A stretch of DNA of 41,123 nucleotides from an uncultured Adlercreutzia sp. (GCA_947426355.1 CANEDU010000003.1:1-41123); one strand, 5' to 3'; shown: positions 20,414 through 36,725, counted from the first letter of the stretch. Numbers and translations: made by a program. Notes: generated from the letters alone by a model not told the origin.

Positions 20414-21136
20414 TCAAAAGTGCAAACAATCGCCTTTTTTCGACGAAAAATCGGACAAAACTTTACTGGATGGAACAAACCTTCTCCCTGCCAGCAGAGC
20501 CGCCAATCCGAGCAGCGCCGTCACCGCGGCAAGGGGGATAAGCTCAGCGGCATCTCCTGTCAGATAGGTTGAAGGCAGGGTGCCGCCCGACAGCAAAAGC
20601 GGCCCCCAATACAGCAAATCGAAGAGACTATGGAAGGCAATGGGCATTGCCAGCGCAAAGGAGCGGCACGGCTGGGGCAATCTGTCGAAGGGGCTGCGCA
20701 GCACGAGCATGGCCATAACCAGACCGAAAAGCGTCGACTGCGCAACCTTCAGCAGCGCCTGAACAGCCGCTATACCGACATCGGCGCCTGATTGCAGAAG
20801 AGGTCCGTCGGGAAGAAGATGGAAGAGGCCGAACACCAGGGAGCTGGCCACCATTGCAAAGCGGGCCGGATTCCGGAAAAGGGCGCATGAGGCTTCCCGC
20901 TGGGAAAAGGATCGCGCCCAAGACAGGCAGCTCCACAGCAGCACCCCACGGAAGAGTATCTCCTCGACAAACCCCGCCTCCAAAGCGGCAGCTATAAGCT
21001 CGCCCAGGCGGCTAAAGTCCCAAACTGTTGAGCCCCCTTCAGCCCACCCCTGGCCCACACCGCCCACCACTGCGGCTAGCAGCACAACTACAAGGGGCAA
21101 GCCGAGGCCGGCCGGTATGATTTTGGCGTTTCCCAT
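20414..21136 (-). CDS. CPBP-family intramembrane glutamic protease
   Basis: A 240-aa polytopic protein with the CPBP/CAAX protease signature: EEILFR (Glu58, Glu59 and Arg63), the FGLFH motif with His106, and a last conserved motif around His169 and Asp173 (AFHSLFDLL). Members cleave within or near the membrane. In Gram-positives they often process or confer immunity to small peptides, but no peptide gene is obvious here. The ATG at 21136 has almost no ribosome binding site, and a TATAAT lies only eight bases upstream, suggesting a leaderless message. The last 20 residues are charged and lie in an AT-rich stretch. Confidence 0.85.
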   Translation of the reverse strand: MGNAKIIPAGLGLPLVVVLLAAVVGGVGQGWAEGGSTVWDFSRLGELIAAALEAGFVEEILFRGVLLWSCLSWARSFSQREASCALFRNPARFAMVASSLVFGLFHLLPDGPLLQSGADVGIAAVQALLKVAQSTLFGLVMAMLVLRSPFDRLPQPCRSFALAMPIAFHSLFDLLYWGPLLLSGGTLPSTYLTGDAAELIPLAAVTALLGLAALLAGRRFVPSSKVLSDFSSKKGDCLHF

Positions 21137-21386: not shown

Positions 21387-22085
21387 GTGACCCGCTTGCC
21401 CTCTGTTTCCGCATTCTCCTTGAAAGTAGCGGCTATCGTGGGAATGACATGCAATCACGTGGCGAACGTGTTTGGCGGCGCGCTGCCTGGCGAGGCCATG
21501 GTGGCACTGTATGCTTTGGGCGGTCTCACCTTTCCCATCATGGCGTATCTGCTGTGCGAGGGCTATCGACACACATCCAGCGTGCGTCGCTATGCCGAAC
21601 GGCTCGGCGTGTTTGCGGCCATCTCTCAAGTGCCCTATTCGCTGCTGTTCGGGGCGACGGGCAATGTGCTCATCACCCTGCTTATCGGGCTGGGAATGCT
21701 ATGGACACTTGACCGCGTGAGAAACCGCGTGCTCTGCGCGCTGGTGATGCTCGCGGGGCTTGTGGCGAGCGGCCTTTGCGACTGGGGCGTTATTGGACCG
21801 GTGATGATTCTGCTGTTCTGGCATCTGCACGATCGCCCGCGCGGGGTAGCGCTGGCGATGCTTGTGCCGATGGTCGCCTTTGGGCTGCCAGCGCTTTCGT
21901 GGGCTCTTTCCGAGACAACGCCGCTGAGCCTTGGCGCACTGGGCTACTACACCGTTGGGTTCGGCTTGGCCACGATGCTCATGCTGAACTACAACGGCCG
22001 GCGAGGCCGGCCGTTGAAATGGTTCTTCTACGTGTATTATCCCGCACACCTCATGGTACTGTGGGGGCTTACGCTGTTCTCCTAG
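21387..22085 (+). CDS. TraX-family membrane acyltransferase-like protein
   Basis: A 232-aa polytopic protein of the TraX family (F-pilin acetylase relatives). It has about eight hydrophobic helices and family landmarks such as LKVAAIVGMTCNHVAN at the N-terminus, LTFPIMAYLLCEGYRHT, RLGVFAAISQVPYSLLF and, at the end, KWFFYVYYPAHLMVLW. TraX acetylates pilin, but most chromosomal copies lie outside conjugation loci and their targets are unknown. No conjugation gene is near. The GTG start follows GAAAGGAT. The stop shares the palindrome CTAG with the stop of the convergent gene. A perfect GC-rich inverted repeat (21993-22015) sits inside the 3' end. Confidence 0.85.
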   Translation: MTRLPSVSAFSLKVAAIVGMTCNHVANVFGGALPGEAMVALYALGGLTFPIMAYLLCEGYRHTSSVRRYAERLGVFAAISQVPYSLLFGATGNVLITLLIGLGMLWTLDRVRNRVLCALVMLAGLVASGLCDWGVIGPVMILLFWHLHDRPRGVALAMLVPMVAFGLPALSWALSETTPLSLGALGYYTVGFGLATMLMLNYNGRRGRPLKWFFYVYYPAHLMVLWGLTLFS

Positions 22086-23260
22086 AACGTCTGCTGCGCG
22101 TTCGGCGCAACGACCGTTTCAGCTTCGGACGCCGTGTTGCCGAGCACCTGGCTCTCGAACGACGCGAGCTTCTGGGTCATGATCAGGCGACGGCGAACCG
22201 CAACCACGCCCCACAGAGCCGTGCCGATTGCGCCCATGCCTGCAACCCACGGAGCCGGATCCACCGGAGCATCGAAAGCGCCCAGGGGCACCTCTTCCTC
22301 TTCGATGGACGCATTACTGCGAGCAGCCATGGGAACGGCGTCGTTGTCAATCGTTGAGGTAGGGGCAACAGGCTCAGACGCTTCCTCGAGCTCGGGCGCA
22401 GGGGCAGCGTCCGGCTCGGGCTCTGAAACGATGGTGCGCTCACCGGCGGCAAAGCCACCGTCTGGCGTGTTATTGTCGTTCGGTGCGGCAGGCGTCTGCG
22501 AATTTGCCTGAGGCTGATTGGGACGCTGCGGCGTGGGAACAGTCACGCTGGGGACCGTAATCGAGCCCGGATTCTCAGGTTCGGGCACCGTCGGACGCTG
22601 CGGCTCGTTGGGGCCGTTGTTTTCGGGGGTGTTGTTGCCGCCCTGGTTTTCGTCGCCCTCGTGAGAACCATCGTCGGGATTACCCGGAGCCGGCTTTTTG
22701 ACAACCTTGCCGTCAAGATGCCAGGTCCACGCGTCTGCCGCTTCAAGATAATCGTTTGCGCCACGCTCTGCCTTTAGGTGCATCCATTCAACCTGGGACA
22801 AATCGATTTCTCTACCATCTAAGAACTCGATGTCTTTCAGGGCTTCGCCGATCTTCTCCTGCATCTCGCTGCTGATGGCAAACGTTCTCTCGGCTTCGGC
22901 CTTGTCCTCGTAGGCAGTGGCAGGATCGATTTCCAGCTGAATCACACCAACGGTGATCCACCCGGAACTGTTAACGATTCCGTCTCGCTTTGCCTGCTCA
23001 AGCTCATCACCCGTAAGGCCGGAATCCAGATACACGTAAACGTTCTGAGGCTCCTTCTGAACCTCAGTGCCCTTGTCGTCATCTGCGGACGCGCCAGGCC
23101 ACTCGACAATGGCCCCTTTGCCCTCATCGGCGAAGGCAAAGCCTGGCTGCAGTGCGCTATTCAATGAAACAGCCAGCAGCGCTGCCAAAGCTAGTGCTGC
23201 AAGCTTCCCAAAAATGGTTTTATCCGTTTTGGCAAACCGTGTGATGTCGGTCAAGATCAT
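22082..23260 (-). CDS. Secreted, membrane-anchored protein with PLGAFD C-terminal module
   Basis: A 392-aa surface protein of unknown function. The signal peptide runs to about residue 43 (LAALALAALLAVSLNSA, AFA). A compact extracellular domain (about 55-195) has NVYVYLDSGLTGDELEQAK and WTWHLDGKVVKKP. A long Pro/Asn/Glu-rich stalk covers about 200-320. The C-terminus carries two copies of an acidic motif (STIDNDAVPMAA and SIEEEEVPLGAFD). The second runs into a membrane helix (about 333-355), RRRL (356-359) and a conserved tail with VLG. The same C-terminal module ends the two LRR proteins to the right. ATG 23260 has GGAAGGAAG before it; a TTG six codons upstream is possible. Confidence 0.8.
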   Translation of the reverse strand: MILTDITRFAKTDKTIFGKLAALALAALLAVSLNSALQPGFAFADEGKGAIVEWPGASADDDKGTEVQKEPQNVYVYLDSGLTGDELEQAKRDGIVNSSGWITVGVIQLEIDPATAYEDKAEAERTFAISSEMQEKIGEALKDIEFLDGREIDLSQVEWMHLKAERGANDYLEAADAWTWHLDGKVVKKPAPGNPDDGSHEGDENQGGNNTPENNGPNEPQRPTVPEPENPGSITVPSVTVPTPQRPNQPQANSQTPAAPNDNNTPDGGFAAGERTIVSEPEPDAAPAPELEEASEPVAPTSTIDNDAVPMAARSNASIEEEEVPLGAFDAPVDPAPWVAGMGAIGTALWGVVAVRRRLIMTQKLASFESQVLGNTASEAETVVAPNAQQTF

Positions 23261-23526
23261 CACCCGCTTCCTTCCCAAATTCTTACTTTGACAAAGATTG
23301 TTTCAGTTTACCAAAAGTTGACGATTTTTCAGCCTTTCAACAGCGTTTTTCGGCATTTTTTGAAGGAACTTTCACATAAGTCTTCCCCGCGTGATGCCTA
23401 TATTTACTTTGACTAATCCTTAGCGAACAGTGCCATAAGCGCCATCACTTTTCCCTGGCCCCGGACGAGCCCCCGGATGCTTTCAAAGGGACAGAAAACC
23501 TAATGAGGATTTTGGAACGCAAGACT

Positions 23527-23736
23527 CTACTTCTGGCCCAGCTCTCGAAGGAGCTCCTCGCGGTAATCCGCATCGGTCGCGGCGCGGCGGGCGTCCTCGA
23601 AGCGGCCGGCATCTTCGGTTGCTATGTACCGAAGTAAACCACGAAGCTGCCCATCAGGCAACTCCTCCCAAGCAGAGGCATTCAAAACCGACCACATGAA
23701 CCCGTGCCCTAGCTCAACACCGCCGCTTTCTTCCAT
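23527..23736 (-). pseudogene. Possible gene remnant, unknown family
   Basis: The last part of a leftward frame reads like real protein (WEELPDGQLRGLLRYIATED, then DADYREELLRELGQK). Upstream sequence does not read like protein, and no ribosome binding site precedes either ATG (23736 or 23697). It may be the C-terminal remnant of a helical protein. I do not recognise the family, and chance coding in GC-rich DNA is possible. Confidence 0.25.
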
Positions 23737-23887
23737 CCGAGTCGCAGAAATGACGGCGGGAGGTCCCGCTTTGCACCTCCCCCCGCGCCTCAAAGATGTC
23801 GCTTGACTAGCCTCAACGAGTCTCCCGCAAGCCTCCTTGTGAGACAATTGCCCAGCCGCCGCACGATGGAGATGTTTGAAAAGAAAG

Positions 23888-23915
23888 GACGGGCCGCGCG
23901 TTGGCGTGGCCCGTC
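23888..23915 (-). terminator. Terminator of the left LRR-VWA gene
   Basis: A stem GACGGGCC/GGCCCGTC with extra pairing in the loop. On the minus strand it is followed by CTTTCTTTTC. A near copy, including about 50 bases of flank, lies at 27969-27998. Confidence 0.75.
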
Positions 23916-23941
23916 TGATTGGTTGGCTCTGTCGCGGGCTC

Positions 23942-24052
23942 GAAAAGCCCGCTTGTGAGGTTGACCCCCCCTGGGGCACAGGCCCGGAAGGCCCGCTGGT
24001 GGGGCTGACCCCTGGGACGCAAGTCCGAAAGGTCCGCGCGGAGGCTACCCGC
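23942..24052. repeat. Imperfect tandem repeats of about 44 bases
   Basis: Two clear units begin at about 23942 and 23986, sharing GCCCGCT-GTG-GG-TGACCCC followed by TGGG and a CCG-AAG tail. A third, partial unit starts near 24028. They lie between the terminator and the stop of the left LRR gene. Confidence 0.6.
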
Positions 24053-24075
24053 CAGCCGCGCCCTCGCGGCGAGTC

Positions 24076-27000
24076 CTACAGGGCCTGACGGCTCGCTGCC
24101 GTCATGGGCTCGGCGGCAGACTCCTCAACACCGAGAACGTATTTCTCCATGTCCTCGAGCTCATCCTTCATACCAAGACGACGCCTCACTACAGCAACAC
24201 CGTAGATAACGGTAAGCAGAACGCCTATCAGAGCGACCCAGTGCACCCAGCAGTGCGGCTCGTCAAAAGCACCCATGGGCGTCTCGTCCTCGGAGATGGA
24301 CTCAGGCTCGTTGGCCTCACGCAGCATCGACGTAGCGACTGCTTGCGGTGTGGCGTTGTCCTCAATCTCCTCAGCTTCGGGCGTCACGACGGGAGCCGCT
24401 GCCGGAATCGCCGCAGGAGCCACCGTCACAACGGTGGTGGGAGTGGTGGTCGCGGCAGGCGTGGTAGTCGGCGCGGGCGTAGTCGGATTCGCCGGCGTCG
24501 TAGGCTGAGCAGGGCCAGGGACATTCGGAACCGAAGGCGTGGTAGGCTGCGAAGGAGCAGCAGGGTCATTAACCGTACGAGACAGCATGAGGTTAATGCC
24601 GACGGAAGCGCCGCCCTTGCCAAACGTTGCGTTACCACCATTGTTAATTCGATAGCTGTTCGTTCCTACCTGGTTCAGCAGATCATCCTTAAGCGCCATC
24701 GTGTATGTAAGCGTATGCTGAGCGAAAGGCATGTCCTCAAGCGTCCAGACAATGATTCCATTGTTCTCATCATATTGGACGGAGCCAGCCGAGGCGCTTA
24801 TGTTTCCCATATTGAACTGCGCCGCGTTTACGGGAACCGTAACGGTGTTCGTGCCATACACGGCAGCGAACGCGGCATTCATCGCCTTGCCGAACTGCTC
24901 GGTGTTGGTTGACTCGTAGACATTCTCCTTATCGCCGCACACGCCCTTCATTGCATCCATAGCCGTATCGCGGCTTCCGCTAGCGGGCGAATGCAGAACA
25001 CCGTAGATGGGCACACCAGCTGCCTTGATCTTTGCAGCCGCGTCGGTGCCGTACTGATCTCCGCTACCGTTGGCAGTAGGATAGCCATCGGACAAGAACA
25101 CCAGTGCCGTATTGCGGCCTTTGTGACCTTGGATTAGTTTAAGGGCTTCTTTAAGACCCAGACCGTAATCGGTGTTCTCGTTGAGCGGCTCCAGCGCCTT
25201 GATGTAGCTTTCTGCATCGTTAGCATCCTGAGTGAAGTCAAGCGAAGAGCACGTTTGAGTATCGTTGTGCAAGCCACCAAAAGTGACAAGCGCTACTTGG
25301 CAATCGTAGCCCGGAGTATTCAGCAGCGAACCAGTCATGTCCAGCAGCTTAGACTGCATGTCATAGAAACGTGCGTTTTCATCCTTGGGGTTGCCCAACT
25401 GCGCCATAGAGGCAGACAGATCGGCAACAAAGATGTAGTCCATCTGCTTCTCGCCCGTGTAGTACGCATCTACCTTGACTTCGGCCACGCCCGAATTGAC
25501 GTCCTGCCAGCGCGCCTGCTCCATAAGCTGCGTGCCGTTGTCATACTGGTTCCAGTTGTCGCTCTGGTCCAGCGCACCAGCAATCCAGTAATTCCTGTCA
25601 CCAAGGGTCAATGCTTCAATTTTTTCCGCACTGTCCATCTTGAACTTGCCAGCCAGGATGTTCTGCATGCGCTCCATCATTTCGATGCTGCCGTTATATC
25701 CCATCTTAGTCATGTCTTCGACAGTCAAACCCTTAAGGTTCTTGCAGCCATAGAACGCGAAGCCACCAATACGATCACTCACGTTGCGCAAGCTATCAAC
25801 CGTGCTCAAATTGGAGCAATTCCAGAAGGCGTACTGCTCAATGACATCAATGTTGTTGATTGTCGCAGTGGTCAGCCCCGTGCAATCCTTGAAGGCATAC
25901 TGACCGATCGATTTAACGTTACTAATCGTTGCGGTAGTCAGCCCGGCACAGCCAGAAAACGCATAACCTCCAAGGTCGCTATCCTTAACAGTAAGGGTCA
26001 TTCCCTTGGTTCCAGCAGCCTTGAATGGCGGGTAAAAAATCCCTTTTTCTGCGTCGTAGATGTCCGCCTGATCGAACGTCACATTGGTCAAATCCACTTC
26101 TTTCAGGTTAGTGCATTTGTAGAAAGCATTTTTGCCAATATGGTCTACATTCGTCATCTTCAACGTAGCTAACGACGTACATGCCGGCAATACATTGTCG
26201 CCATAAACCGAGAAGGCCATGTTGCCAATCGTCTCAACATCGCTAATCTCGACCGTCTCAAGACCCGTACAGCCAGTAAATGCCTGCGACCCAACAGACT
26301 GAATATTCTTTAACACTACTTTGGTAATTCCAGTACAACCATAAAACGCCGTGTTGCCAACTTCAACGCCGTCAATGTTAATCTCGCTCAGCGATTTGCA
26401 CCCTAAAAACGCTGACGTTCCAATTGCGCTTACTTTTCCTGACAGAACGAGTTTGCCGAGTTTGCTGCAATTCATAAAAGCCTGAAACCCGATGGTTCCA
26501 ACGTTATCAAAAGACAGCTCAGTTAGCTCGCTGTGATCCTTAAAAGCTTGGTCAGCGATATTCGTTACGTTAGCAAGAGAAACCTTATTTAGCTTAGTTG
26601 CGCCGCCGTATACATTGAAGGCGTTCTTCCCAATCTCTTCAACGTTGCTAATTGCGACTTCTTCAAGATTTGCTGGATTATAAAAGGCGAACTGGTCAAT
26701 TGTGCCTACGCCGTCTATTTCAAGGCACTTTAAAGCAGTGCAGCTACGGAATGAATACCCAATATGCTTGACATTTTTAATCGTGGCGCTTTCTATTTTA
26801 AATTCGGCGAAAGCCTCTTTAGAAATGGAGCCAATGTCCTCAAGAACAAGTTCTTTGGCCGTTCTTTTCCATTGAGACACGTCACTGGAATCAATTACGT
26901 CCTTGTTCTTGATAGTTAAGACTCCTGTAGCTTCGTCGAAAGTTACCAGGTCTTTTGTGGGGTTTTCTTCTGTTTGCTCGGTTGACTGGGGAGTAATATC

Positions 27001-27288
27001 AGTATCTTTTTGCTGATTACTGCGCTGGCTTGCAAAAGCCGAAGCATCGCTTGCTTTGTCTTCAGCCTCATTGTCGGCCAACTCTTCCGCTGTCGTGTCA
27101 GCAATTTGATTTTCCAACTGAGAAACTTCGACTTCCTTGAGAGCGTCTTCGCCTTCAGCTGCTCCCGCAAAGTCTGTGAACATAGATACGTTCAAAAACG
27201 AAAAAGTTAGTAGAGCTGATAGGAGGATGGAAACGCCCTTACCCTCTTTGGCGTTTCGCGCGTCTAAGAAACGTGCACCTAATTGCAT
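24076..27288 (-). CDS. BspA-type LRR and VWA surface protein with PMGAFD anchor
   Basis: A 1070-aa secreted surface protein. The unusual signal peptide (residues 1-42) has FLDARNAKEGK, LLSALLTFSF and MFTDFA. An acidic low-complexity segment follows, then BspA/TpLRR-type leucine-rich repeats (about 110-560) of the form IG-AF-C-L-V-I. A von Willebrand A domain (about 612-795) carries an intact MIDAS motif DLSASM and FLSDGYP. A beta-sandwich-like region (about 800-905) precedes a Pro/Thr/Ala-rich stalk and the acidic motif IEDNATPQA. The C-terminus is PMGAFDEP (from 1004), a membrane helix, RRRL (1035) and a 36-residue tail. LRR and VWA domains usually bind ligands, so an adhesin is likely. ATG 27288 follows AAAGGAAAAG. 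The LRR part is more AT-rich than the ends. It is a paralogue of the gene at 28574-32125. Confidence 0.9.
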   Translation of the reverse strand: MQLGARFLDARNAKEGKGVSILLSALLTFSFLNVSMFTDFAGAAEGEDALKEVEVSQLENQIADTTAEELADNEAEDKASDASAFASQRSNQQKDTDITPQSTEQTEENPTKDLVTFDEATGVLTIKNKDVIDSSDVSQWKRTAKELVLEDIGSISKEAFAEFKIESATIKNVKHIGYSFRSCTALKCLEIDGVGTIDQFAFYNPANLEEVAISNVEEIGKNAFNVYGGATKLNKVSLANVTNIADQAFKDHSELTELSFDNVGTIGFQAFMNCSKLGKLVLSGKVSAIGTSAFLGCKSLSEINIDGVEVGNTAFYGCTGITKVVLKNIQSVGSQAFTGCTGLETVEISDVETIGNMAFSVYGDNVLPACTSLATLKMTNVDHIGKNAFYKCTNLKEVDLTNVTFDQADIYDAEKGIFYPPFKAAGTKGMTLTVKDSDLGGYAFSGCAGLTTATISNVKSIGQYAFKDCTGLTTATINNIDVIEQYAFWNCSNLSTVDSLRNVSDRIGGFAFYGCKNLKGLTVEDMTKMGYNGSIEMMERMQNILAGKFKMDSAEKIEALTLGDRNYWIAGALDQSDNWNQYDNGTQLMEQARWQDVNSGVAEVKVDAYYTGEKQMDYIFVADLSASMAQLGNPKDENARFYDMQSKLLDMTGSLLNTPGYDCQVALVTFGGLHNDTQTCSSLDFTQDANDAESYIKALEPLNENTDYGLGLKEALKLIQGHKGRNTALVFLSDGYPTANGSGDQYGTDAAAKIKAAGVPIYGVLHSPASGSRDTAMDAMKGVCGDKENVYESTNTEQFGKAMNAAFAAVYGTNTVTVPVNAAQFNMGNISASAGSVQYDENNGIIVWTLEDMPFAQHTLTYTMALKDDLLNQVGTNSYRINNGGNATFGKGGASVGINLMLSRTVNDPAAPSQPTTPSVPNVPGPAQPTTPANPTTPAPTTTPAATTTPTTVVTVAPAAIPAAAPVVTPEAEEIEDNATPQAVATSMLREANEPESISEDETPMGAFDEPHCWVHWVALIGVLLTVIYGVAVVRRRLGMKDELEDMEKYVLGVEESAAEPMTAASRQAL

Positions 27289-27708
27289 GTCTCTTTTCCT
27301 TTCTCTCTCTGGCTTTTATCGCATGACCTTGCGGCCTTGGTTGCTTTTGCCCTCTTTTTCTGTTACCAGTGGTGCACTTTACTGTAATTGATTTGAAAGA
27401 AATTGATAGCGACTCTCGAAGTGCTATTCCGAGCAGAAGAAGCCGAATCTGATACTCTTTTTGCTTTTTGACCTTGGGTTTTGTTCTTTGCTAATAGGCC
27501 TTTGGGGGAATTTAAGTTGAAAGGTCACTGATAGGGTATCGCTAGGCTTAATAAGCCCTTCGCTCTCTTTGCTGGCACAATCCCTGTTGCCAAAATGACT
27601 CTTGTATACCCAATCGCCAGTTCGGCATAGGTGAGACAACGAAAAGGTGTGTTCTGTAACCTAGAAAGCGACACTTGGGGGTGCTGACGTTTTCCAACCC
27701 AAAACATC
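27289..27708. other. AT-rich leader of the left LRR-VWA gene
   Basis: No gene is supported. The sequence is AT-rich and presumably holds the promoter, but I see no convincing -35/-10 pair. It ends at the IS3-family transposase remnant. Confidence 0.45.
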
Positions 27709-27960
27709 TTATGCGGCAAGCCCCAGCGATTTTCTGTATTGCATGGGACTCATGCCTCCCGATGACGGCTTTACTCTCTTCTCGCTCGTGGGCGTGGATA
27801 TCTTCCTTGACGGGGTTGGCCATATGCTCCCGATGCCAGTTGCAGAGCGATCCTCTGAAAGGGTACCCCAGCTCGTTGATGACGGACTGCGGACTGAAGT
27901 CGAACTTGACGAATAGCTCGATTGGCCTAAACGCGCCTCGCGTAAACCGCAGGCGAGAGA
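27709..27960 (-). pseudogene. Decayed IS3-family transposase (OrfA start joined to OrfB end)
   Basis: Read leftward in one frame, the fragment starts with an OrfA-like helix-turn-helix (PIELFVKFDFSPQSVINELG, then YPFRGSLCNWHREHM). It then passes straight into the typical OrfB C-terminus (EKRVKPSSGGMSPMQYRKSL) and a stop. Intact IS3 elements have about 350 codons between these parts, including the DDE catalytic residues, which are all missing. So this is an internally deleted, inactive relic. No terminal inverted repeats were identified. It marks past insertion-sequence activity inside the surface-protein island. Confidence 0.75.
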
Positions 27961-27968
27961 AAAGAAAG

Positions 27969-27998
27969 GACGGGTCGCGCGTCGTCGCGGCCCGTCCG
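27969..27998 (-). terminator. Terminator of the 164-aa membrane protein gene
   Basis: A stem GGACGGG/CCCGTCC extended by CGCG pairing, followed on the minus strand by TTTCTTTTCTC. It closely resembles the terminator at 23888-23915, including flanking bases. Confidence 0.7.
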
Positions 27999-28021
27999 GT
28001 CGGTCGGTTATGTCGTAAGCC

Positions 28022-28516
28022 CTAAGCAACCAACAGGGCGGCCAGGTCCTCGCGGGAGGAGAAGGGGCGCGGCTCGGCGTCCGGGTCGTGGACGGGGAGC
28101 ACCTCGCCCTCCCACACCTCGCCGTTGCGCTCGAACTTGTGCGAGCGAACGACCCACAGGAACGAGGGGCGCACCCGATCGTCCAGGTCGGCCACTTCAT
28201 CGGGGAAGGCCTGACCGGACAAGGTGCGCTCGAGCGCTCCCAGCGCGGTCTCGCCAGCATCGGGCATGACGACGCCCGCCTCGGGGTTGTACACAACGCC
28301 CTCGCCAACAAAGGCAAGGCGCATGCGCTCGCGGCGCTTGTTCTCGGCCCAGTAGATGGCACCGATCACAGCAGCCACGGCAACCCACCATACTACAGCC
28401 ACGATTAGGTCAAGCGGGTCGTCCACATGGTTGAATCCCAGGGCGAACCATGCCCACAGCAGAATCCCGCAGGCGACAGCCGCGACTGCCGTGATGATCC
28501 AGTTGGATATTCTCAT
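28022..28516 (-). CDS. Two-helix membrane protein of unknown function beside the LRR gene
   Basis: A 164-aa protein with two N-terminal membrane helices (about 6-28 and 36-58) followed by the basic stop-transfer KRRERMR. A soluble, probably cytoplasmic domain (about 65-164) carries DRVRPSFLWVVRSHKFERNG and VLPVHDPDAEPRPFSSREDL. I do not recognise the family. The start has a strong AAAGGAGAG. It lies 57 bases downstream of the large LRR-VWA gene in the same direction, so it could be co-transcribed, with a hairpin between. A helper or regulator of the surface protein is a guess from position only. Confidence 0.7.
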   Translation of the reverse strand: MRISNWIITAVAAVACGILLWAWFALGFNHVDDPLDLIVAVVWWVAVAAVIGAIYWAENKRRERMRLAFVGEGVVYNPEAGVVMPDAGETALGALERTLSGQAFPDEVADLDDRVRPSFLWVVRSHKFERNGEVWEGEVLPVHDPDAEPRPFSSREDLAALLVA

Positions 28517-28538
28517 CTCAGTCTCTCCTTTCAGGGAA

Positions 28539-28562
28539 GGGGATGCGGCCTCGCCGCACCCC
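28539..28562 (-). terminator. Hairpin between the right LRR gene and the 164-aa gene
   Basis: On the minus strand, GGGGTGCGGC-GAG-GCCGCA-CCCC with one bulged T. It has no real T-tract and is followed directly by the next gene's ribosome binding site. It may be a partial terminator or an RNA-stabilising hairpin rather than a full stop. Confidence 0.45.
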
Positions 28563-28573
28563 CGCGGCTTTTC

Positions 28574-31500
28574 TTACAGGGCCTGATGGCCAGCGACGGC
28601 CACAGTCTCGGTCTCGGCATCCTCGACGCCGAGGACCTGCTTTTCCATGTCGTCAATTTCGTTGGTCAGACCAAGGCGACGACGGACAACAACGATTCCG
28701 TACACGGCGGTGAGCAGGATGCCGATGAGCATCACCCAGTGCACCCAGCAGTGCGGCTCGTCGAAGGCGCCCATGGGCGTGCCCTCGTCCTCGATCTGCT
28801 CGGGAGCCTCGGCACGCGGCGTGGCAGCCTGCGGCGTCGCGTCGTCGGCGATGGCCTCAGCAGCCGGAGCGGCCGGGGCCGGCGTGGTGGTCACTACCGT
28901 CGGCGCGGCTGCAGGTGTCGGTGCAGGCGCCGGTGCAGGTGTCGGTGCAGGCGTCGGATTCGTAGTCGGGTTCGTAGCCGGCGTCGGGTTCGTAAAGGTG
29001 CGATAGTAGCGCAGAGTTACTGCATCATTTTTGCCTTCCGCTACCGTCAAAGAGCCATTAGCCTGAGTGAGAACGTAATTAGAACCATTATATGAAGGAT
29101 GTCCGACCATGTCCGCCGCACGAACGGCAGTGCCAACAGCTGCCGTGCGAGTCTCAGTGTACGTACCATCAAGCACACCGTTGGTATAGTACTCATGAAC
29201 GACTCGATAAGATCCCATTACAACAGGTGCTGTCACCGTACGGGAGAGCTTCGGAGTAACGACACTTGCTCCTCCGAAATCAAACGAAGCATTGCCGTGG
29301 TTGACATCGAAGATAGAAGTTCCGATTATCTCAGCATTTTCTACTGTAAGGCTCATCTCGTAGGTAAGGGTGTGCTTAGTGAACGGCATGCCCTGAATTG
29401 CCCACGTGATGGTGTGGCTATCGGAATCGTAGCTTGCCTCGCCGGCACTAGCAGAAACCTCCAAGTTGGCTACATTTTCAAATGCTTCATTCACTGGGAT
29501 AGTAATAGTACGTGCTCCATACACAGCAGTAAACGCCTCGTTCATTGCCTTGCCAAAGGACTGAGTGTCCGTGGACTCGTATACAGCGTACTCGCCGCAT
29601 ACGTTTTGCATAGCCGTAAGCGCCGCGTCATGAGCAGATCCCGGTGAGTGCAAGACGCCATAAATCGGAACATTTAAATCACGGATAACTTGAGCAGCTG
29701 CGGTGCCAGCCATATCGCCAGACCCGCTCTGATTCGGCTGGCCGTCCGAAAGGAAGACCACTACCGTGTTTCTGTCAACATTGCTTTGGGCCAGACTACT
29801 GGCTGCCTGCATTCCCAGCCCATAATCAGTGTTCTCGTAAAGAGGCTCAAGGCCGCTTATGTGAGCTCTTACTGCCGCCAAATCGCTCGTAAACGCTAGC
29901 GTCTTGCTCGTGCCGGGCGTACTTGCGTCCAAAGCACCGCCAAAAGTGACAACGGCTATGCGGCAATCATACCCCTTGGAGCCAAGCAGGTTGTTTGCCA
30001 TGTCTAACAGTTTAGATTGCATGTCATAAAAACGAGAGTTTTTATCTGCAGCATTTCCAAGCTGCGCCATTGAGGCTGAAAGATCTGCGACGAAGATATA
30101 GTCCATCTGCTTTTCGGCAGTGTAGTACGCATCGACCTTTACTTGAGCAACCGATTTGCCTTCGTCGATCCAGCGAGCCTGCTCAACAAGCTGAGTACCA
30201 TTCTGGTAAGTGTTCCAGTTTTCCGACTTCGCAACGTTGCCGCTGTCCCAGCCGGACTCAATTTGCAGCTCTTTAATCCCAGGCGCGGCATCGAGCTTGA
30301 ATGTACCCTTTAGAATAGATTCAACACGGCCCATGACGTCGCCGTAATTTCCGTTGAAACCCATCTTCGTGATGTCTTCAACCGTCAAGCCCGTAAGGCT
30401 CTCGCAACCGTAAAATGCAAAACCGTCGATTCTCCCAACATTTTCCAAACTATGAATTGACTCCAGATTGGTACAGTGCTGAAAAGCATAGGTGCCAATA
30501 GTACCAACCCTGTCAAGCGTTACTTCATTTAAACCGACGCAATAAAAGAAGGCCTGATTACCAATAATGCCAATGTTCTTAAGACTGACGTCTTTCAGGT
30601 TTTGACAATATATAAAGGCCTGCGTTCCGATAGTCTCCGTACCATCGATATGGAGCGTTTCTAGCTCAGAGTACGTGCCATTTGAACCATAGCCATAAAA
30701 AGCTTGTTCCCCTATGGTTGTAACATTCGTAAGATCTACTGTTTTTAGGGCAGCAGCCTCCCAGAATGCTAGTTTTCCGATCGATTTGGTCTCGTTTATG
30801 CTCACTTCTTCCAACGCAGAGCAACGCCAAAATGCTCGATCGCCGATAACCCCGACGTTGGACGCGTTCACCTTCTTGAGACTGTCGCAGCAGAATGCTT
30901 GCCTCGCTATCGTGTCTATGTTTTCAAGCGTCAAGCACCCAATGACAGAATCTGCAGTGCTAGTGGTGAAATCGTCATCGAACACGCTTGTCTCAACCAA
31001 CCCAATATTCCGCAAGACGACATTTACAGCATTGCTCTTTGCATCATCGCCAACTCCTCTACCTATTTTAGAAAGCGCAGACGAGCCCAGCGTCTCAACA
31101 CCATCAATAATGACCGTCTTGATGTTCGGGCATTCGTACAAGAGGTTGGCATATATTACTTTGGTTTCTTTACCTTGGTCGCTTACCAGCTCAAAGCTCT
31201 CCAGATTTGAACAAGATTGAAAAGCTCCACTCCAGATTTCTTTGACGTTGTGCAGCTTTACTGTCTTCATCGCTTTGCAGTGTGCGAATGCGCCGGAGCC
31301 TATAAAGTCGCCCTCAAAATTCAGCTCCTCGAACGCAGCACCCAGAAAAGCGTACGCATCAATATGGGAGACATTCTCTAAGTCAATATCTTTCAGTTTT
31401 GGGCAGCGCATGAATGTTGAGTTGCCAATCCAAGTAACCCCTCCTATCTCGACTTTCTCTAGATTGTCGCATCCTTCAAAAGTGGCCTTACCCAGAGAGG

Positions 31501-32125
31501 TGACAGTGTCGCTCAAGACCAGGCTCTTAATGTCCTTTTTTATCGCGTAAAAAATTGTGTCCCAATTTTCTTTCACCTGGTGAACTTTATTCTCTTGCAA
31601 AAATTCTATGGTGATTTCACCCTCGAAGTTGATGGTCAAGGTACCTGTTGCTGAGTCGTACACCATCACTTGCTCGTCTTTTTTTGCATCTGCGGACTCT
31701 TCAATTTGCTTGTCGGCTTGCGCTTCTTGATTTATCGCCTCTTCCGACGCCTTATCTCCGATAGAGCCCGTTACTTCATTAGCACCGGAAAAGCTCTCAC
31801 TCGTTTCGGAAGTTCCAGCCTGGTCGACCTTTACATCCTCGACGGTTTCATTCGCCTTGAATCCCCTATTAGCCGAATCGTCGTTTCCAGTTTCGACCAA
31901 ATCATCCTGTCCAGCCGAATCGTCAACCCTAACACCGTGATCGACTGATTCGCTAATAAATTCGATGCCCGTCGTCTCGCCCGTCGTCTCTTCCGCGGCG
32001 TTGGCGAAGTCCGTGAACATGGTCACGTTCAGGAACGAGAACACCAGCAGCGCCGACAGCAAGACAGAGATGAACTTGCCCTCGGCGGTGTTTCTCGCGT
32101 CCATGAACCGCGCGATGGTCCGCAT
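28574..32125 (-). CDS. BspA-type LRR, VWA and MucBP-like surface protein with PMGAFD anchor
   Basis: An 1183-aa paralogue of the gene at 24076-27288. It shares the signal peptide type (FMDARNTAEGK, LLSALLVFSF, MFTDFA). A longer acidic, Ser/Glu-rich segment (about 45-165) precedes BspA-type leucine-rich repeats (about 190-610). A von Willebrand A domain with DLSASM (about 670-850) is nearly the same as in the paralogue. A MucBP-like domain (about 973-1040: YRVVHEYYTNGVLDGTY and LRYYRTF) is absent from the paralogue. A Pro/Thr stalk, IADDATPQA, then PMGAFDEP (from 1117), a membrane helix, RRRL (1148) and the 36-residue tail complete it. It is probably an adhesin. ATG 32125 follows AGAAGG; a GTG three codons upstream is less likely. 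The ends are GC-rich and the LRR core AT-rich. Confidence 0.9.
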   Translation of the reverse strand: MRTIARFMDARNTAEGKFISVLLSALLVFSFLNVTMFTDFANAAEETTGETTGIEFISESVDHGVRVDDSAGQDDLVETGNDDSANRGFKANETVEDVKVDQAGTSETSESFSGANEVTGSIGDKASEEAINQEAQADKQIEESADAKKDEQVMVYDSATGTLTINFEGEITIEFLQENKVHQVKENWDTIFYAIKKDIKSLVLSDTVTSLGKATFEGCDNLEKVEIGGVTWIGNSTFMRCPKLKDIDLENVSHIDAYAFLGAAFEELNFEGDFIGSGAFAHCKAMKTVKLHNVKEIWSGAFQSCSNLESFELVSDQGKETKVIYANLLYECPNIKTVIIDGVETLGSSALSKIGRGVGDDAKSNAVNVVLRNIGLVETSVFDDDFTTSTADSVIGCLTLENIDTIARQAFCCDSLKKVNASNVGVIGDRAFWRCSALEEVSINETKSIGKLAFWEAAALKTVDLTNVTTIGEQAFYGYGSNGTYSELETLHIDGTETIGTQAFIYCQNLKDVSLKNIGIIGNQAFFYCVGLNEVTLDRVGTIGTYAFQHCTNLESIHSLENVGRIDGFAFYGCESLTGLTVEDITKMGFNGNYGDVMGRVESILKGTFKLDAAPGIKELQIESGWDSGNVAKSENWNTYQNGTQLVEQARWIDEGKSVAQVKVDAYYTAEKQMDYIFVADLSASMAQLGNAADKNSRFYDMQSKLLDMANNLLGSKGYDCRIAVVTFGGALDASTPGTSKTLAFTSDLAAVRAHISGLEPLYENTDYGLGMQAASSLAQSNVDRNTVVVFLSDGQPNQSGSGDMAGTAAAQVIRDLNVPIYGVLHSPGSAHDAALTAMQNVCGEYAVYESTDTQSFGKAMNEAFTAVYGARTITIPVNEAFENVANLEVSASAGEASYDSDSHTITWAIQGMPFTKHTLTYEMSLTVENAEIIGTSIFDVNHGNASFDFGGASVVTPKLSRTVTAPVVMGSYRVVHEYYTNGVLDGTYTETRTAAVGTAVRAADMVGHPSYNGSNYVLTQANGSLTVAEGKNDAVTLRYYRTFTNPTPATNPTTNPTPAPTPAPAPAPTPAAAPTVVTTTPAPAAPAAEAIADDATPQAATPRAEAPEQIEDEGTPMGAFDEPHCWVHWVMLIGILLTAVYGIVVVRRRLGLTNEIDDMEKQVLGVEDAETETVAVAGHQAL

Positions 32126-32726
32126 ACCCCACACCTTCTTTCTCTACTACGTTTGCTTCTACGACTCTTTAAATACCGTCTGCTCATCAGCCGGATATTT
32201 AACGTACGTACTGACAGGGTTCCGCCCTGCCGGCGGGAGACGGGCACTGAAGCGCCGCGCTCAATGGCTTCCTGGGCTAACCATAAATTGGTTAGCCGTT
32301 AGAAAAGCGTTTCGTTTGGGCCCTTTCGTTGCCTTCGCGTCACGCGTCGTACACCCGCGCGTTACGAGTGACTAGAACCACTTTATCTATCTGGGAAAAC
32401 TTTTCCATTAACGATATTAGTGTTTTAGTCAACAATAAGTAGCCTTCTTACAATTTCAAGGCTGTGAACTGGTCTTTTACAGGCAAAGTTCTGATATAGC
32501 AGAATTTTTTAGACATGCTAATGACAGGGCAAAGAACGGAGTAAAAAAGCCCTAAACGAACTAAACCAAAGCGCAACGATAGTTTTGAAGGGGTGAACGG
32601 TTTTGATTTTGTAAGGTTTTTGGGGATAACTTGAAGCGAGAACACCCCACCGCAGCTAGGCGCCGAGACAGTCAGTAAGAAGATAAAGACACCTCATCCG
32701 ACCCAGGCGCTTCGCAGCGCAGCGGG
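32126..32726. other. Intergenic region between the LRR island and the SipW operon
   Basis: Six hundred bases without a supported gene, strongly AT-rich in 32370-32640. It must hold the promoter of the right LRR gene and the end of the SipW operon. TTGACT occurs on the minus strand near 32430, but no good -10 lies at standard spacing. The perfect inverted repeat GGCTAACC-ATAAATT-GGTTAGCC (32275-32297) could be an operator. No strong terminator for the SipW operon is visible. Confidence 0.5.
32275..32297. promoter_or_regulatory. Inverted repeat upstream of the right LRR gene
   Basis: Two perfect 8-base arms with a 7-base AT-rich spacer, about 150 bases upstream of the LRR gene start. There is no T-tract beside it, so it fits a dimeric repressor or activator site better than a terminator. 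No regulator gene is nearby. Confidence 0.4.
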
Positions 32727-33302
32727 CTACGATTTGCGAGCGGAAAGACCGGAAAGGACAGAACCTATGGCACAGAAGGCGGCGGCCATGAGGACGATCC
32801 AGCCGAGGAGGAGCTTACCCGGCGTGCTGGCAAGCGCCATAAGGAAGTAGCCTAGGTAGGGAATATGGAAGGTGACGCGGCCCAAAACGTTGGCGTAGGG
32901 GACGGGGCGCACGTCGAGGTCTTCGTTGGCGTCGCCTTTGGTGACAAGCTCGGCGCGCTCGGCATCGACGGCTTCCACGCGGTGCACGATGACATCCTGG
33001 TCGCGCCAAAAGGCGGCCACATCGCCCGGGGCCAAGTCGGCACCGCCGACGGGCTCAGCGTAGACAAGGCTGCCCGTAGGATAAGCCGGTTCCATAGATC
33101 CGGAAATGATAGCGTAGGACTGCAGGCCCATGATACGCGGGGCCACCGACGCAGTGATAGCCACAGCGGCCAGCGCCACCAAGACAAGCGCGCCTAAAGT
33201 TGTGAATAGGCGCGCAAGGGCGCGATAACGAGCAAGCCGCCGCTCGACACCATGGGAGAAGGCGTCGGCGGCGGCTTGGGTTTCAGAGGCGGGTGTTTGC
33301 AT
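32727..33302 (-). CDS. sipW: SipW-type signal peptidase I (Ser-His, ER/archaeal class)
   Basis: A 191-aa membrane peptidase. The N-terminal membrane helix (about 36-55) precedes the catalytic box ISGSMEPAYPTGSLVY (Ser69). VIVHRVEAV follows with His107 where ordinary bacterial signal peptidases have Lys, then TKGDANEDLD. A C-terminal hydrophobic segment (about 150-183) ends the protein. The Ser-His form is that of Bacillus SipW, which processes TasA and TapA. Two genes upstream in the same operon encode proteins with matching N-termini, so they are the likely substrates. It is the last gene of the leftward operon, 26 bases after its neighbour. ATG 33302 has a weak ribosome site; a GTG at 33320, 11 bases after GAGGAG, is a serious alternative. 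Confidence 0.9.
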   Translation of the reverse strand: MQTPASETQAAADAFSHGVERRLARYRALARLFTTLGALVLVALAAVAITASVAPRIMGLQSYAIISGSMEPAYPTGSLVYAEPVGGADLAPGDVAAFWRDQDVIVHRVEAVDAERAELVTKGDANEDLDVRPVPYANVLGRVTFHIPYLGYFLMALASTPGKLLLGWIVLMAAAFCAIGSVLSGLSARKS

Positions 33303-33328
33303 GGGGCTATTGTCCCACACTTTCCGCG

Positions 33329-34498
33329 TTACTCCTCGGCCGCGGGCTTGTTGTTGCGGCGGGCGATTACAAGGATGATAGCGATAAGCGCGGCAATGAC
33401 ACCAGCGGCAATGGCCCAGGGGATCCACGCGGTGTTGGCCGCCGGCACCTGGCTGCCGAGCTGCTCGCCAGCGGACAAGGCATTCTCGTTGTCATCAATA
33501 CGCTCAACGCCGGGGGCGGCCAGAGGCGTACCGTCGGCAGCGAGAAGCTCTTCGCCATCGGGGGTGACAAGGCCCGCGCCGGGCTCGCGCACGCCGCCGT
33601 CTGCCGCACCGGCTTCGGCGCCGTCAGCTGCGCCGGGCGTGACGACCGTAGTGTAGGCGCCGGAAATGGTGTTACCGGTGCCCGCGCCCTGACCGTCTCC
33701 CGTGCCCTGCGGCGGGTTCACGGTGATGTTCACCGTGCCGTCGGGCTGCAGCTCGGTAGAGGCGTTGTCGGCCAGGCGGGTATAGCGGAACTCCACCACA
33801 TTAGCGGACTCGTCCTCACTGAGCGTGAGCAACACAAGCGTCGCCTGGGGCAGATAGTTCTCAATGTAGCGCGGCGCGGTGGCCGGGGTGTCGCCGATGT
33901 CACCGAAGAACGTCTCGGACTCGCGCAGCGTCTCGCCCGTTTCCGCATCCACGTAGTTCACCGTGTAGGCGACGCGGTTGGCCATGATGCCGTAGGCGAC
34001 GACGAAGTCCATGTCCTCGGTGATGGCAATACCGGGAGCGGGCACGCCGTCAACCAGGGTGTCCTGCTGGTCAACCATGACGCCATCGGCGTTGGGGCGC
34101 GCGTAGTAGATGGTCTCCTCGCCAATTTTCGTGGCGCCATCGCGATTCTTGTCGGAGCGCACGTTGTCCAGCGCGGCCAAGCGAATGCCCTTAGCGTAGT
34201 ACTTGCTGTCTTCGGGGACCTCGATGGAGATGCCGTCGAAGGAAAACGCCGTGCCGGGCGCGACGTCGGCAAACGTGAGCTGGGTCTGGCCCGCCTCGGT
34301 GCCCTGGGCCAGCGTGCCCTGGTTGCCGCTGAACACCGACACCGTGTAGGTAGTGCCCGCGTAGGCCTTGGCCGGGGCCGGCTGCACATCGCTCTTGCTC
34401 TCAGAATCGGCAAACGCCGCGGGAGCGGCCAGCGAGACGGCCATCATAGTGGCGCACAGCACCGCCAGGGCGCGGCGGCCGAGGTTCATCTTCTTCAT
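33329..34498 (-). CDS. Surface protein with MucBP-like domain and C-terminal membrane anchor
   Basis: A 389-aa protein with an Ala-rich signal peptide (cleavage probably after AFA, about residue 30). An N-terminal beta-rich domain has YTVSVFSGNQGTLAQGT and FSFDGISIEVPEDSKYYAKG. A MucBP-like domain (about 180-260) has VAYTVNYVDAETGETL and VVEFRYTRL. A Gly/Ala/Glu-rich stalk, the acidic motif RIDDNENALSA, and a C-terminal helix (about 360-380) with short tail RRNNKP end it. There is no LPxTG-like motif, so it probably stays membrane-bound. It overlaps the upstream stop (ATGA) and has GGAGGG before it. Position suggests it anchors or supports the fibre proteins encoded upstream. Confidence 0.82.
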   Translation of the reverse strand: MKKMNLGRRALAVLCATMMAVSLAAPAAFADSESKSDVQPAPAKAYAGTTYTVSVFSGNQGTLAQGTEAGQTQLTFADVAPGTAFSFDGISIEVPEDSKYYAKGIRLAALDNVRSDKNRDGATKIGEETIYYARPNADGVMVDQQDTLVDGVPAPGIAITEDMDFVVAYGIMANRVAYTVNYVDAETGETLRESETFFGDIGDTPATAPRYIENYLPQATLVLLTLSEDESANVVEFRYTRLADNASTELQPDGTVNITVNPPQGTGDGQGAGTGNTISGAYTTVVTPGAADGAEAGAADGGVREPGAGLVTPDGEELLAADGTPLAAPGVERIDDNENALSAGEQLGSQVPAANTAWIPWAIAAGVIAALIAIILVIARRNNKPAAEE

Positions 34499-35307
34499 CG
34501 GGCCTCGCCCTCCTCAATCTCGTTCTTACGGCGACGCACTGCAGCCACCACCAGCATGGCACCCGCGACGATAACCACAGCGGCGATGATACCGATGGGC
34601 AGCATGTCGCCAGTTTGAGCCAGTCGCTCAAGCAGCGAAGGTTTTTTGTTGGTGTTAGAACTCTCGTTATCCTCTGGATTCTGCGGATCACCGGAGCCGG
34701 AGGTGCCCGGTTCGTCGGTGGGCTCGGCAGCGAAGGACAGCTTGATAACCGCCTCGGAATCGAAGTAGGTGTTGCCGTGGGTCTCTCCATCGAGGGCCAC
34801 GTCAAGCTGCATAGAAGCCTGGGCGCCTGCGGCCAGCGTATCCAGGAAGAACCATTCGGTCGTGCCCGAAGTGGCGTCCTTCAGGCCCTCGGTGGAGCCC
34901 GTGTTCGCATCGCCGGAAACCACGTCGTTGGTGAGGATGACCTTCTTCTCGCCGGCCGGGGTGATGAACGTGAGGCGGTAGCTGTAGGAGCCGCCCGAGG
35001 CGTTCACCTTTTCGAAAGTCTCTTCCATGGTGGCGAGCACTTCGTTGCACATGTACCAATCGGCAGCCGTGGGCGCGCTTTCCTTCAGCGTAATGGTGAA
35101 CTGTGCGGCATCGCCCGGCTGCAGGCCCGCGATGGTTTTGGTGATGTTCGCGGAGTTGTTGTCGATCATCTTGTCGCCGGTGAACTCGACGGTCCAGTCT
35201 TTGGCGTAGGTTTTCGCAAAGGCCGGCGTGGCGGTGATGGCGACGCAGGTAAGCGCCAGGACGATGGCCGCGAACACAGCGAAGGCGCGGCGCATGGTGG
35301 TAGTCAT
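34495..35307 (-). CDS. LAQTGD-anchored surface protein of the SipW operon
   Basis: A 270-aa secreted protein. The signal peptide has a cleavage-like AFAKTYAKDW. An immunoglobulin-like beta domain (about 35-205) resembles TasA/camelysin-type ectodomains in length and pattern (AGLQPGDAAQFTITLKES). A Ser/Asn-rich stalk leads to the sortase-type signal LAQTGD, a membrane helix (about 239-258) and RRRK tail. LAxTG is a common actinobacterial variant of LPxTG, so cell-wall attachment by a sortase encoded elsewhere is likely. No sortase lies in this window. Start ATG 35307 follows AGGGGG, nine bases after the upstream stop. Likely role: wall-linked base or component of a fibre. Confidence 0.83.
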   Translation of the reverse strand: MTTTMRRAFAVFAAIVLALTCVAITATPAFAKTYAKDWTVEFTGDKMIDNNSANITKTIAGLQPGDAAQFTITLKESAPTAADWYMCNEVLATMEETFEKVNASGGSYSYRLTFITPAGEKKVILTNDVVSGDANTGSTEGLKDATSGTTEWFFLDTLAAGAQASMQLDVALDGETHGNTYFDSEAVIKLSFAAEPTDEPGTSGSGDPQNPEDNESSNTNKKPSLLERLAQTGDMLPIGIIAAVVIVAGAMLVVAAVRRRKNEIEEGEAR

Positions 35308-35316
35308 CGCGACCCC

Positions 35317-36108
35317 CTATTCCTCGCCGGACCAGTCAAGGCCCTCGTCAGCGAACTGGGTGACATCGATGCCCCACGCACTTTTTGCGGCGGCGACGGC
35401 GTTGTTCACCTGCACGGAATCAACCTGGGCATCCAGAGTGAGCCAGCAGGAGGCGTAACTTTCCACGGTGTTCTTAATGCGGTCGCTCACCCTGATAGCG
35501 GTGACAGCCGGCTGCGCGGCTGCCTCGCCGGGGGCGAGCACCGTTTTGTAGTAGAACACCTCGCGCTCCGGCGTGCACTCGGCCTCGGAGCGGACCCAGT
35601 ACTTGGCGGACTCGGCGTCGAAGACGAGCTCGATGAGCGACGGATCGAGGGAGAACGTCTTCGTTGCGGAATCTGCGCTTTCCCCTTCGGACCAGTACTT
35701 GCGCACGGTGAGGCGCACGTACTCGGGCATGCCCTCGGCGGCGGTGCCTTCGGCGGTTGCTACATCTTCGGAGATGTTCTTCACGGACAGCAGCTCGGTG
35801 TAGGCCTTGCCAGGGATAAGAGAGGTTCCCTCGGTTTCCGCGTCTTGCTTGGCGATTTCTTCAACTACCTTGTCGAGCTTCAAATCGCCCACGCCGCTGC
35901 GGATGTTTTCGTTCTCGGTTCCATTCTCGGTGAGGGCGACGCCGATGTGGGTCTGCGCGATTTCGGCCTCGTACTCAGGGCTGAAGTAGGTGAGCGCCGA
36001 GCGAGCCGGGGTGGCGGCCATCATAGCCAGGCAGCCCACCAAGGCCGCCGCCAACACGATAAGCGTGACGCGCTGCGTTTGGTTGAGGTTCTTGAACGTC
36101 TTCAGCAT
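35317..36108 (-). CDS. TasA/CalY-like protein with SipW-type signal peptide (B)
   Basis: A 263-aa secreted protein. The N-terminus (VTLIVLAAALVGCLAMMA, then ARSALTYFSPEYEAEI) follows the SipW-dependent pattern: hydrophobic helix, Ala-rich site, then an aromatic strand leading to IGVALTENG. The rest is a beta-sandwich-like domain with VSDRIKNTVESYASCWLTLD and repeated ISEDVA-type strands, as in TasA/camelysin relatives. It ends without an anchor. TasA proteins polymerise into biofilm fibres, so a fibre subunit is likely. It begins three bases after the upstream stop, with GGACGGTGAG as ribosome site. Confidence 0.8.
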   Translation of the reverse strand: MLKTFKNLNQTQRVTLIVLAAALVGCLAMMAATPARSALTYFSPEYEAEIAQTHIGVALTENGTENENIRSGVGDLKLDKVVEEIAKQDAETEGTSLIPGKAYTELLSVKNISEDVATAEGTAAEGMPEYVRLTVRKYWSEGESADSATKTFSLDPSLIELVFDAESAKYWVRSEAECTPEREVFYYKTVLAPGEAAAQPAVTAIRVSDRIKNTVESYASCWLTLDAQVDSVQVNNAVAAAKSAWGIDVTQFADEGLDWSGEE

Positions 36109-36111
36109 GGG

Positions 36112-36723: not shown

Positions 36724-36725
36724 GG

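Follow-up and report, generated by a model that had tools for sequence, protein, structure and literature searches.

The window studied here, 41,123 nucleotides from an uncultured Adlercreutzia sp. (GCA_947426355.1, CANEDU010000003.1:1-41123), is contig C3 of a metagenome-assembled genome (MAG) that is 79.6% complete. Its minus strand encodes three surface proteins with the same C-terminal module (class M; M1 to M3) and, next to M3, a small partner protein with two transmembrane (TM) helices (P). The M-P pair recurs in related bacteria and is almost confined to genomes that carry a type IV pilus (T4P). The features of the locus are listed below; A7 denotes the M-specific N-terminal profile.

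28574..32134, minus strand: M3, the M gene directly adjoining P; 1186 amino acids with LRR_5 repeats, VWA_2 and the C-terminal module
31991..32125, minus strand: extended N-terminal signal of M3, RFMDARNTAEGKFISVLLSALLVFSFLN, matching profile A7 with E = 8.8e-23
28577..28795, minus strand: C-terminal module of M3, consisting of IEDEGTPMGAFDEPH, CWVHW, TM helix, VRRRL and tail
28736..28750, minus strand: CWVHW motif of M3, read from the sequence; its CxxH is predicted to be extracytoplasmic by the positive-inside rule
28025..28516, minus strand: P, 57 bp downstream of M3, a member of an apparently undescribed family; 164 amino acids, two TM helices and a C-terminal domain of ~100 amino acids
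28409..28423, minus strand: DxxxD of P (Asp32, Asp36) in the loop between the helices, covarying with CxxH of M
24076..27288, minus strand: M2, paralogue of M3; 1070 amino acids with LRR_5, VWA_2, module and extended signal
27154..27288, minus strand: extended N-terminal signal of M2, E = 2.6e-19 against A7
24079..24297, minus strand: C-terminal module of M2, with CWVHW at about 24238-24252
22082..23278, minus strand: M1, with an unrelated ectodomain; 398 amino acids and a Cys-less module variant (PLGAFDAPVDPAPWV)
22085..22306, minus strand: C-terminal module of M1, without CxxH

A sequence-only reading of the window had proposed that the three proteins end in the same way, and this was confirmed: M1 matches M2 and M3 with E values of 1e-14 and 8e-16, and the similarity is limited to the last ~90-100 residues and far above chance. 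The distance from PxGAFD to RRRL is indeed exactly 31 residues in all three. The tails had been given as 36, 36 and 37 residues; there are 33, 32 and 32 residues after RRRL, and 37, 36 and 36 only if RRRL itself is counted. The proteins had also been called otherwise different, which applies to M1 but not to M2 and M3, which are full-length paralogues with 41% identity and both carry LRR_5 and VWA_2. M1, the first protein of that reading, lacks the Cys and His of the family core, and its N-terminus shows a weak partial match to A7 (E = 0.037). The M1 orthologue in A. hattorii is L039:5751-7235. Clear module copies in the window genome are limited to M1, M2 and M3.

A profile made from the three window copies gave matches in Adlercreutzia and relatives, and the enlarged profile was then scanned over 138 Eggerthellaceae genomes. 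The module was found in 58 of these, usually once per genome. Across the Coriobacteriales, its core has IxDDxTPLA separated from C[W]VH[W/Y] by a few residues of variable sequence; then come a helix containing LGIxxTxxY, the RR pair and the tail. Among 41 diverse aligned copies, R40 is invariant and I1, D3, P7, C16, W17, H19, G25 and Y32 are conserved in at least 90%. CxxH is present in 77 of the 79 module copies that lie next to a P gene. Exact spacing proved to be a trait of the whole family: Cys and the first basic pair are 22-24 residues apart, with 23 residues in 63 of 77 copies, 22 in nine and 24 in five. The tail varies in length (17-45 residues counted from Cys+26), and the IxDDxTPLA stretch is repeated in front of the Cys in 46 of the 79 P-adjacent copies. 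The module caps the ends of large open reading frames (ORFs) of about 400-5,500 amino acids, whose ectodomains include LRR_5 with VWA_2, MBG_2, Flg_new repeats, Big_2 and beta-helix types.

The module is a homologous, portable C-terminal unit found across different ectodomains. Convergence, by which the sequence-only reading had explained the common spacing, does not apply to a homologous module, and PxGAFD, taken there as the module edge, is a genus-level variant within Adlercreutzia. The module is not confined to recent duplicates of these loci. Profiles of the module and of P gave no sensible match above cut-off in Pfam and NCBIfam; as had been anticipated, no named anchor family matches, and no model of either collection covers the module. 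To our knowledge, T4P are little studied in these bacteria, and no description of the module, P or T4P in Eggerthellaceae was found in the open-licence literature. A weak match to the module profile (24.9 bits, E = 2.9e-5) is seen elsewhere in the window, at the end (WIPWAIAAGVIAALIAIILVIARRNN) of a MucBP/InlJ-like protein of 389 amino acids (33329-34498, minus strand).

Clustering of the genes that neighbour module genes yielded P as the single dominant cluster, and nearly all fetched loci have a match to the P profile adjacent to the module gene. Altogether, 79 M genes have a same-strand P gene no more than 1.2 kb away (73 with P downstream and six with P upstream), and these belong to four families. 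From three other Coriobacteriales families 20 loci were fetched, and each of them contains both M and P. Among the 138 Eggerthellaceae genomes, 56 have M and P, one has M only, 13 have P only and 68 have neither (Fisher p = 9e-25; within-genus permutation 0/20,000). P is thus present in 56 of 57 module genomes, and the sole genome with M only is 63% complete. In a sample of 296 Actinomycetota genomes, P was not seen outside the Coriobacteriales, nor was it found in phage and plasmid collections.

The two families have also diverged together. Adlercreutzia genomes carry two types of pair, A and B, with mean identities (A-A/B-B/A-B) of 65/61/45% for the module and 66/68/42% for P. Since the A-B gap holds even within one genome, each P must have travelled with its own module. 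For 20 loci, the partial correlation between module and P distances, given PilC, is 0.63; the raw correlation (0.755) was not relied on, because it is confounded by the species tree. In addition, conserved residues of the two proteins covary. Of 77 P proteins encoded beside a CxxH module, 76 carry DxxxD and one carries DxxD; beside a Cys-less module, DxxxD was found in none of nine (seven of which were read by hand). By the positive-inside rule, CxxH and DxxxD would both lie on the extracytoplasmic side of the membrane.

AlphaFold2 predicts two paired helices and a mixed alpha-beta domain for P; the model used in judging the cytosolic domain has pLDDT 85.8 and pTM 0.79. A fold search with full-length P gave no usable match. 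The TM hairpin alone resembles 7p2p_C, an accessory chain of the eukaryotic signal peptidase complex (VIA Z 7.3, rmsd 2.8, 58 residues aligned); the two have no sequence similarity, and this fit is within the chance range for helix pairs.

The covarying residues could also belong to a processing system, in which the module would be cut at or near CWVH and P, with Asp32 and Asp36, would be the enzyme or an obligate cofactor that releases or lipid-anchors M, similar to LspA or myxosortase without homology to them. CxxH of M and the two conserved Asp of P probably lie on the same membrane face, and there is one P for one or a few M proteins, as in many-to-one sorting systems; in the window, one local P accompanies three M proteins. 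Against processing, P has just two TM helices and, in Pfam and NCBIfam, matches neither LspA nor the GxGD aspartic membrane proteases nor any other protease family. In Asp-type membrane proteases the Asp residues usually come from separate helices. A conserved cytosolic domain of ~100 amino acids and a long tail would also not be expected for a simple cleavage signal, and Cys-less modules still keep a (divergent) P. An LspA-like motif in P, FNxxD, was set aside, since Asn29 varies and homology is lacking, and is retained only as part of this alternative. A near-invariant Cys in front of a TM helix and a basic cluster is likewise found in MYXO-CTERM (PMC11980579). The module is similar to MYXO-CTERM with its myxosortase (MrtX, CPBP family) and to other Cys-type signals in having Cys just before the helix, then Arg, and varied surface proteins as carriers. 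It differs from MYXO-CTERM in its tail (17-45 residues instead of a short Arg-rich end), in CxxH instead of a GCGC-type motif, in the lack of a conserved CPBP neighbour, in its dedicated two-TM partner and in having usually one substrate per genome. Altogether, we regard processing as unlikely, although it is the alternative that we take most seriously.

P was also detected in 13 genomes without a detected module. Some of these have a divergent P, which is found in three more genomes as a second P copy. At seven divergent-P loci (L105, L108, L109, L110, L112-L114) the adjacent surface protein keeps the layout of TM helix and tail without the Cys, and these Cys-less proteins mostly retain the DxxPL stretch. 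At L105, L108 and L110 the Cys-less module proteins beside the divergent P are small (~165 amino acids). The divergent P genes of L105-L108, L110, L111 and L115 are flanked by ORFs that look by eye like LytTR-like regulators, several of them near the T4P operon. Such neighbours would fit a cell-surface sensor, in which M is a receptor and the M tail and the cytosolic domain of P signal, for instance, surface contact to gene expression or to the pilus. The conserved cytosolic domain of P with its invariant residues is consistent with this, as is VWA_2 in M2 and M3; PilY1, the comparison for surface contact, has a VWA domain. Against a sensor, P has no known signalling domain, the putative regulators are found only beside the divergent P subgroup and the M ectodomains are very variable, which makes this explanation quite improbable in our view.

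The second association is that with the pilus, for which PilC was scored as marker in the genome counts. In the Eggerthellaceae, 65 genomes have P and PilC, four have P only, 11 have PilC only and 58 have neither (p = 1e-22; within-genus permutation 0/20,000). In other families, PilC is present in 24 of 24 P genomes, compared to 40 of 287 genomes overall (p = 1e-24). Half of the genomes (45 of 90) have PilC at most 25 kb away; in the Eggerthellaceae these are 34 of 66, from 15 genera, and in other families 11 of 24. A divergent operon that begins immediately upstream of the module gene is common among the loci. It contains genes for a transglutaminase-like protein and PilC together with small prepilin-like ORFs; at one locus a PilT-type ATPase and a DUF4860 ORF are also seen. 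At many T4P loci the transglutaminase-like gene (PF01841) separates PilC from the module gene, for example L045:1769-2797 and L049:15583-16782. In the genome of the window, PilC is encoded on contig C1, away from the window. The sequence-only reading had pointed to other possible associates; the two-TM partner and T4P were not foreseen.

T4P synteny is clear and common to many loci, which might mean that the module is a plain stop-transfer anchor kept by descent and that its association with P and T4P reflects an old gene cluster without functional dependence. However, M and P stay paired even where T4P lies far off, paralogous pairs have diverged in step within a single genome, CxxH and DxxxD covary, and the within-genus permutation never reached the observed overlap. 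We therefore give this explanation almost no weight.

M proteins resemble PilY1 and other T4P adhesins in being large and adhesin-like, in some cases with a VWA domain, and in co-occurring with T4P. The PilC/PilY1 beta-propeller was not matched by Pfam in the three window M proteins or in nine other M proteins; VWA_2 is present in M2, M3 and L082 only among these 12. M differs from PilY1 also in its membrane-anchored C-terminus, its dedicated two-TM partner and its monoderm hosts.

Many Eggerthellaceae module proteins begin with MxxLxRxxDARNTxEGK followed by a hydrophobic stretch. With E < 1e-16, this A7-type signal has 13 matches in 11 genomes; 12 of them start module ORFs, and the 13th lies in G062, at the start of an ORF that continues into a module ORF of a different frame. 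A weaker match (E = 3.5e-8) lies upstream of a probably broken module gene in A. hattorii, and the remaining matches are weak and cover nearly always the hydrophobic half only. The signal is M-specific in the Eggerthellaceae. It is similar to the YSIRK/GxxS signals of staphylococci and streptococci in that an extended signal-peptide n-region is kept in one class of surface proteins; it differs in its sequence (DxxNTxEGK) and in being confined to Eggerthellaceae module proteins. A prepilin-type N-terminus was considered for M, since EGK precedes the hydrophobic run, and was rejected because on reading there is no class III G|F-x4-E motif. The P-adjacent module gene looks split in A. hattorii (L039:5751-13401, G005:C1:137757-137834) and in G062 (C1 around 2904008-2910254), with the N-terminal signal in another frame or ORF upstream of the module ORF. 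Weak matches of the signal profile include open frames of 22,237 residues (G057:C1 near 534488) and 12,742 residues (G001:C1 near 2479397).

The view that the module is not an LPXTG-type signal held up, as the aligned modules contain no LPXTG-like motif before the TM helix. Tracking with a sortase, which had been suggested, was not supported: PF04203, with sortase subclasses pooled, is nearly universal (133 of 138 family genomes, with or without the module) and does not follow the module. Pfam anchor models did not match the module. The module shares with LPXTG and doubled-motif anchors (TIGR01167, NF033073) a C-terminal helix with basic residues, Gram-positive surface proteins as carriers and a repeated I-x-D/E-x-x-P-L-A. 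These likenesses would be explained if it were a degenerate wall anchor derived from a doubled-motif LPXTG signal and served by the housekeeping sortase, with P beside it by chance or for structural reasons. The repeated IxDDxTPLA that precedes the Cys does resemble NF033073 (LPXTG_double), with sub-threshold matches in 5 of 25 modules (best E = 1.6e-5), and sortases are present in nearly all these genomes. However, all matches stay below the curated cut-off (M1 scores 13.3 bits, cut-off 48), the tails of 17-45 residues are long, and the tight tie to P and T4P would be left unexplained. Such an origin is therefore very improbable.

A membrane protease had been named as another possible associate, and a Rce1/CAAX-type intramembrane protease (PF02517) is encoded beside the M cluster, at 20414-21136 on the minus strand. 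Its homologues lie beside module genes in only two other genomes (G003, G005); it was set aside as dedicated enzyme, since it is not conserved beside module genes. Judged from these comparisons, the module appears to be an undescribed type among the C-terminal anchors of surface proteins, and the P family is probably undescribed as well.

With modest confidence we favour the explanation that the module is a membrane anchor held by its dedicated P, with CxxH and DxxxD as a contact or composite site, and that it serves the pilus. M, a large adhesin-like protein, would be exported by Sec via its own extended signal peptide. The C-terminal module would then halt it in the membrane, with CxxH outside, the helix across and RR and the tail inside. 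P would insert as a TM hairpin whose DxxxD loop faces CxxH of M, perhaps as a composite binding or metal site, with its C-terminal domain beside the M tail inside the cell. P might thereby hold, stabilise or position M so that it can cooperate with the pilus, perhaps as an adhesin or tether associated with it. The homology of the module, its use on different ectodomains, the adjacency, co-occurrence, co-divergence and covariation of M and P, the link of both to T4P genes and the M-specific signal in Eggerthellaceae are observed. We infer the topology, the contact between M and P, the absence of M cleavage and the role at the pilus. The membrane anchor with a cytoplasmic recognition tail that the sequence-only reading had put forward is close to this. 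A bolder version is that CxxH of the giant adhesin and DxxxD of P form one composite metal-binding or catalytic site that couples the adhesin to T4P in monoderms, as a new machine for surface display; this is a tentative idea, and we consider it rather doubtful.

Several points weigh against the anchor held by P. Two of its elements, the M-P contact and an uncleaved M, are themselves what we infer. Four P genomes lack PilC and 27 T4P genomes have no detected P. The nine Cys-less pairs come from no more than about four lineages. The extended signal was not seen in other Coriobacteriales families, and the cytosolic domain of P gave no usable match to solved structures (best Foldseek E 0.85, best VIA Z 3.2). 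P also occurs as a stand-alone gene without a module gene next door, beside hypE-like genes (G000:C11:28499-28984 (L099), L100:7024-7599, L117:7722-8300 and L118:7648-8175). Finally, synteny and co-loss of M/P and T4P could come in part from one ancestral locus that was lost in single events. The genomes in which P and PilC are apart (in about half they were not found close) show that loss of a single cluster is not the whole explanation.

The module and P thus represent two apparently undescribed families, tied to each other and to T4P, in an important order of gut bacteria that includes Eggerthella, Adlercreutzia and their relatives. Giant surface proteins so far annotated as hypothetical can be grouped into a class of their own, with a partner to test and particular residues to mutate, and the pair may illustrate how adhesins are displayed beside the pili in a monoderm that has no LPXTG signal.

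Besides the M genes, the window contains a minus-strand cluster (32727-40634) with a signal peptidase I of the SipW/archaeal type (TIGR02228, 85.8 bits, cut-off 51.85), small exported proteins (36112-36723, 35317-36108 and 34495-35307) and a surface protein of 1302 amino acids; by eye it is similar to a SipW-TasA or pilin-like operon. On the plus strand, 21387-22085 encodes a multi-TM protein that looks TraX-like by eye and also accompanies module genes in four further genomes of the genus (G001, G002, G004 and G006).

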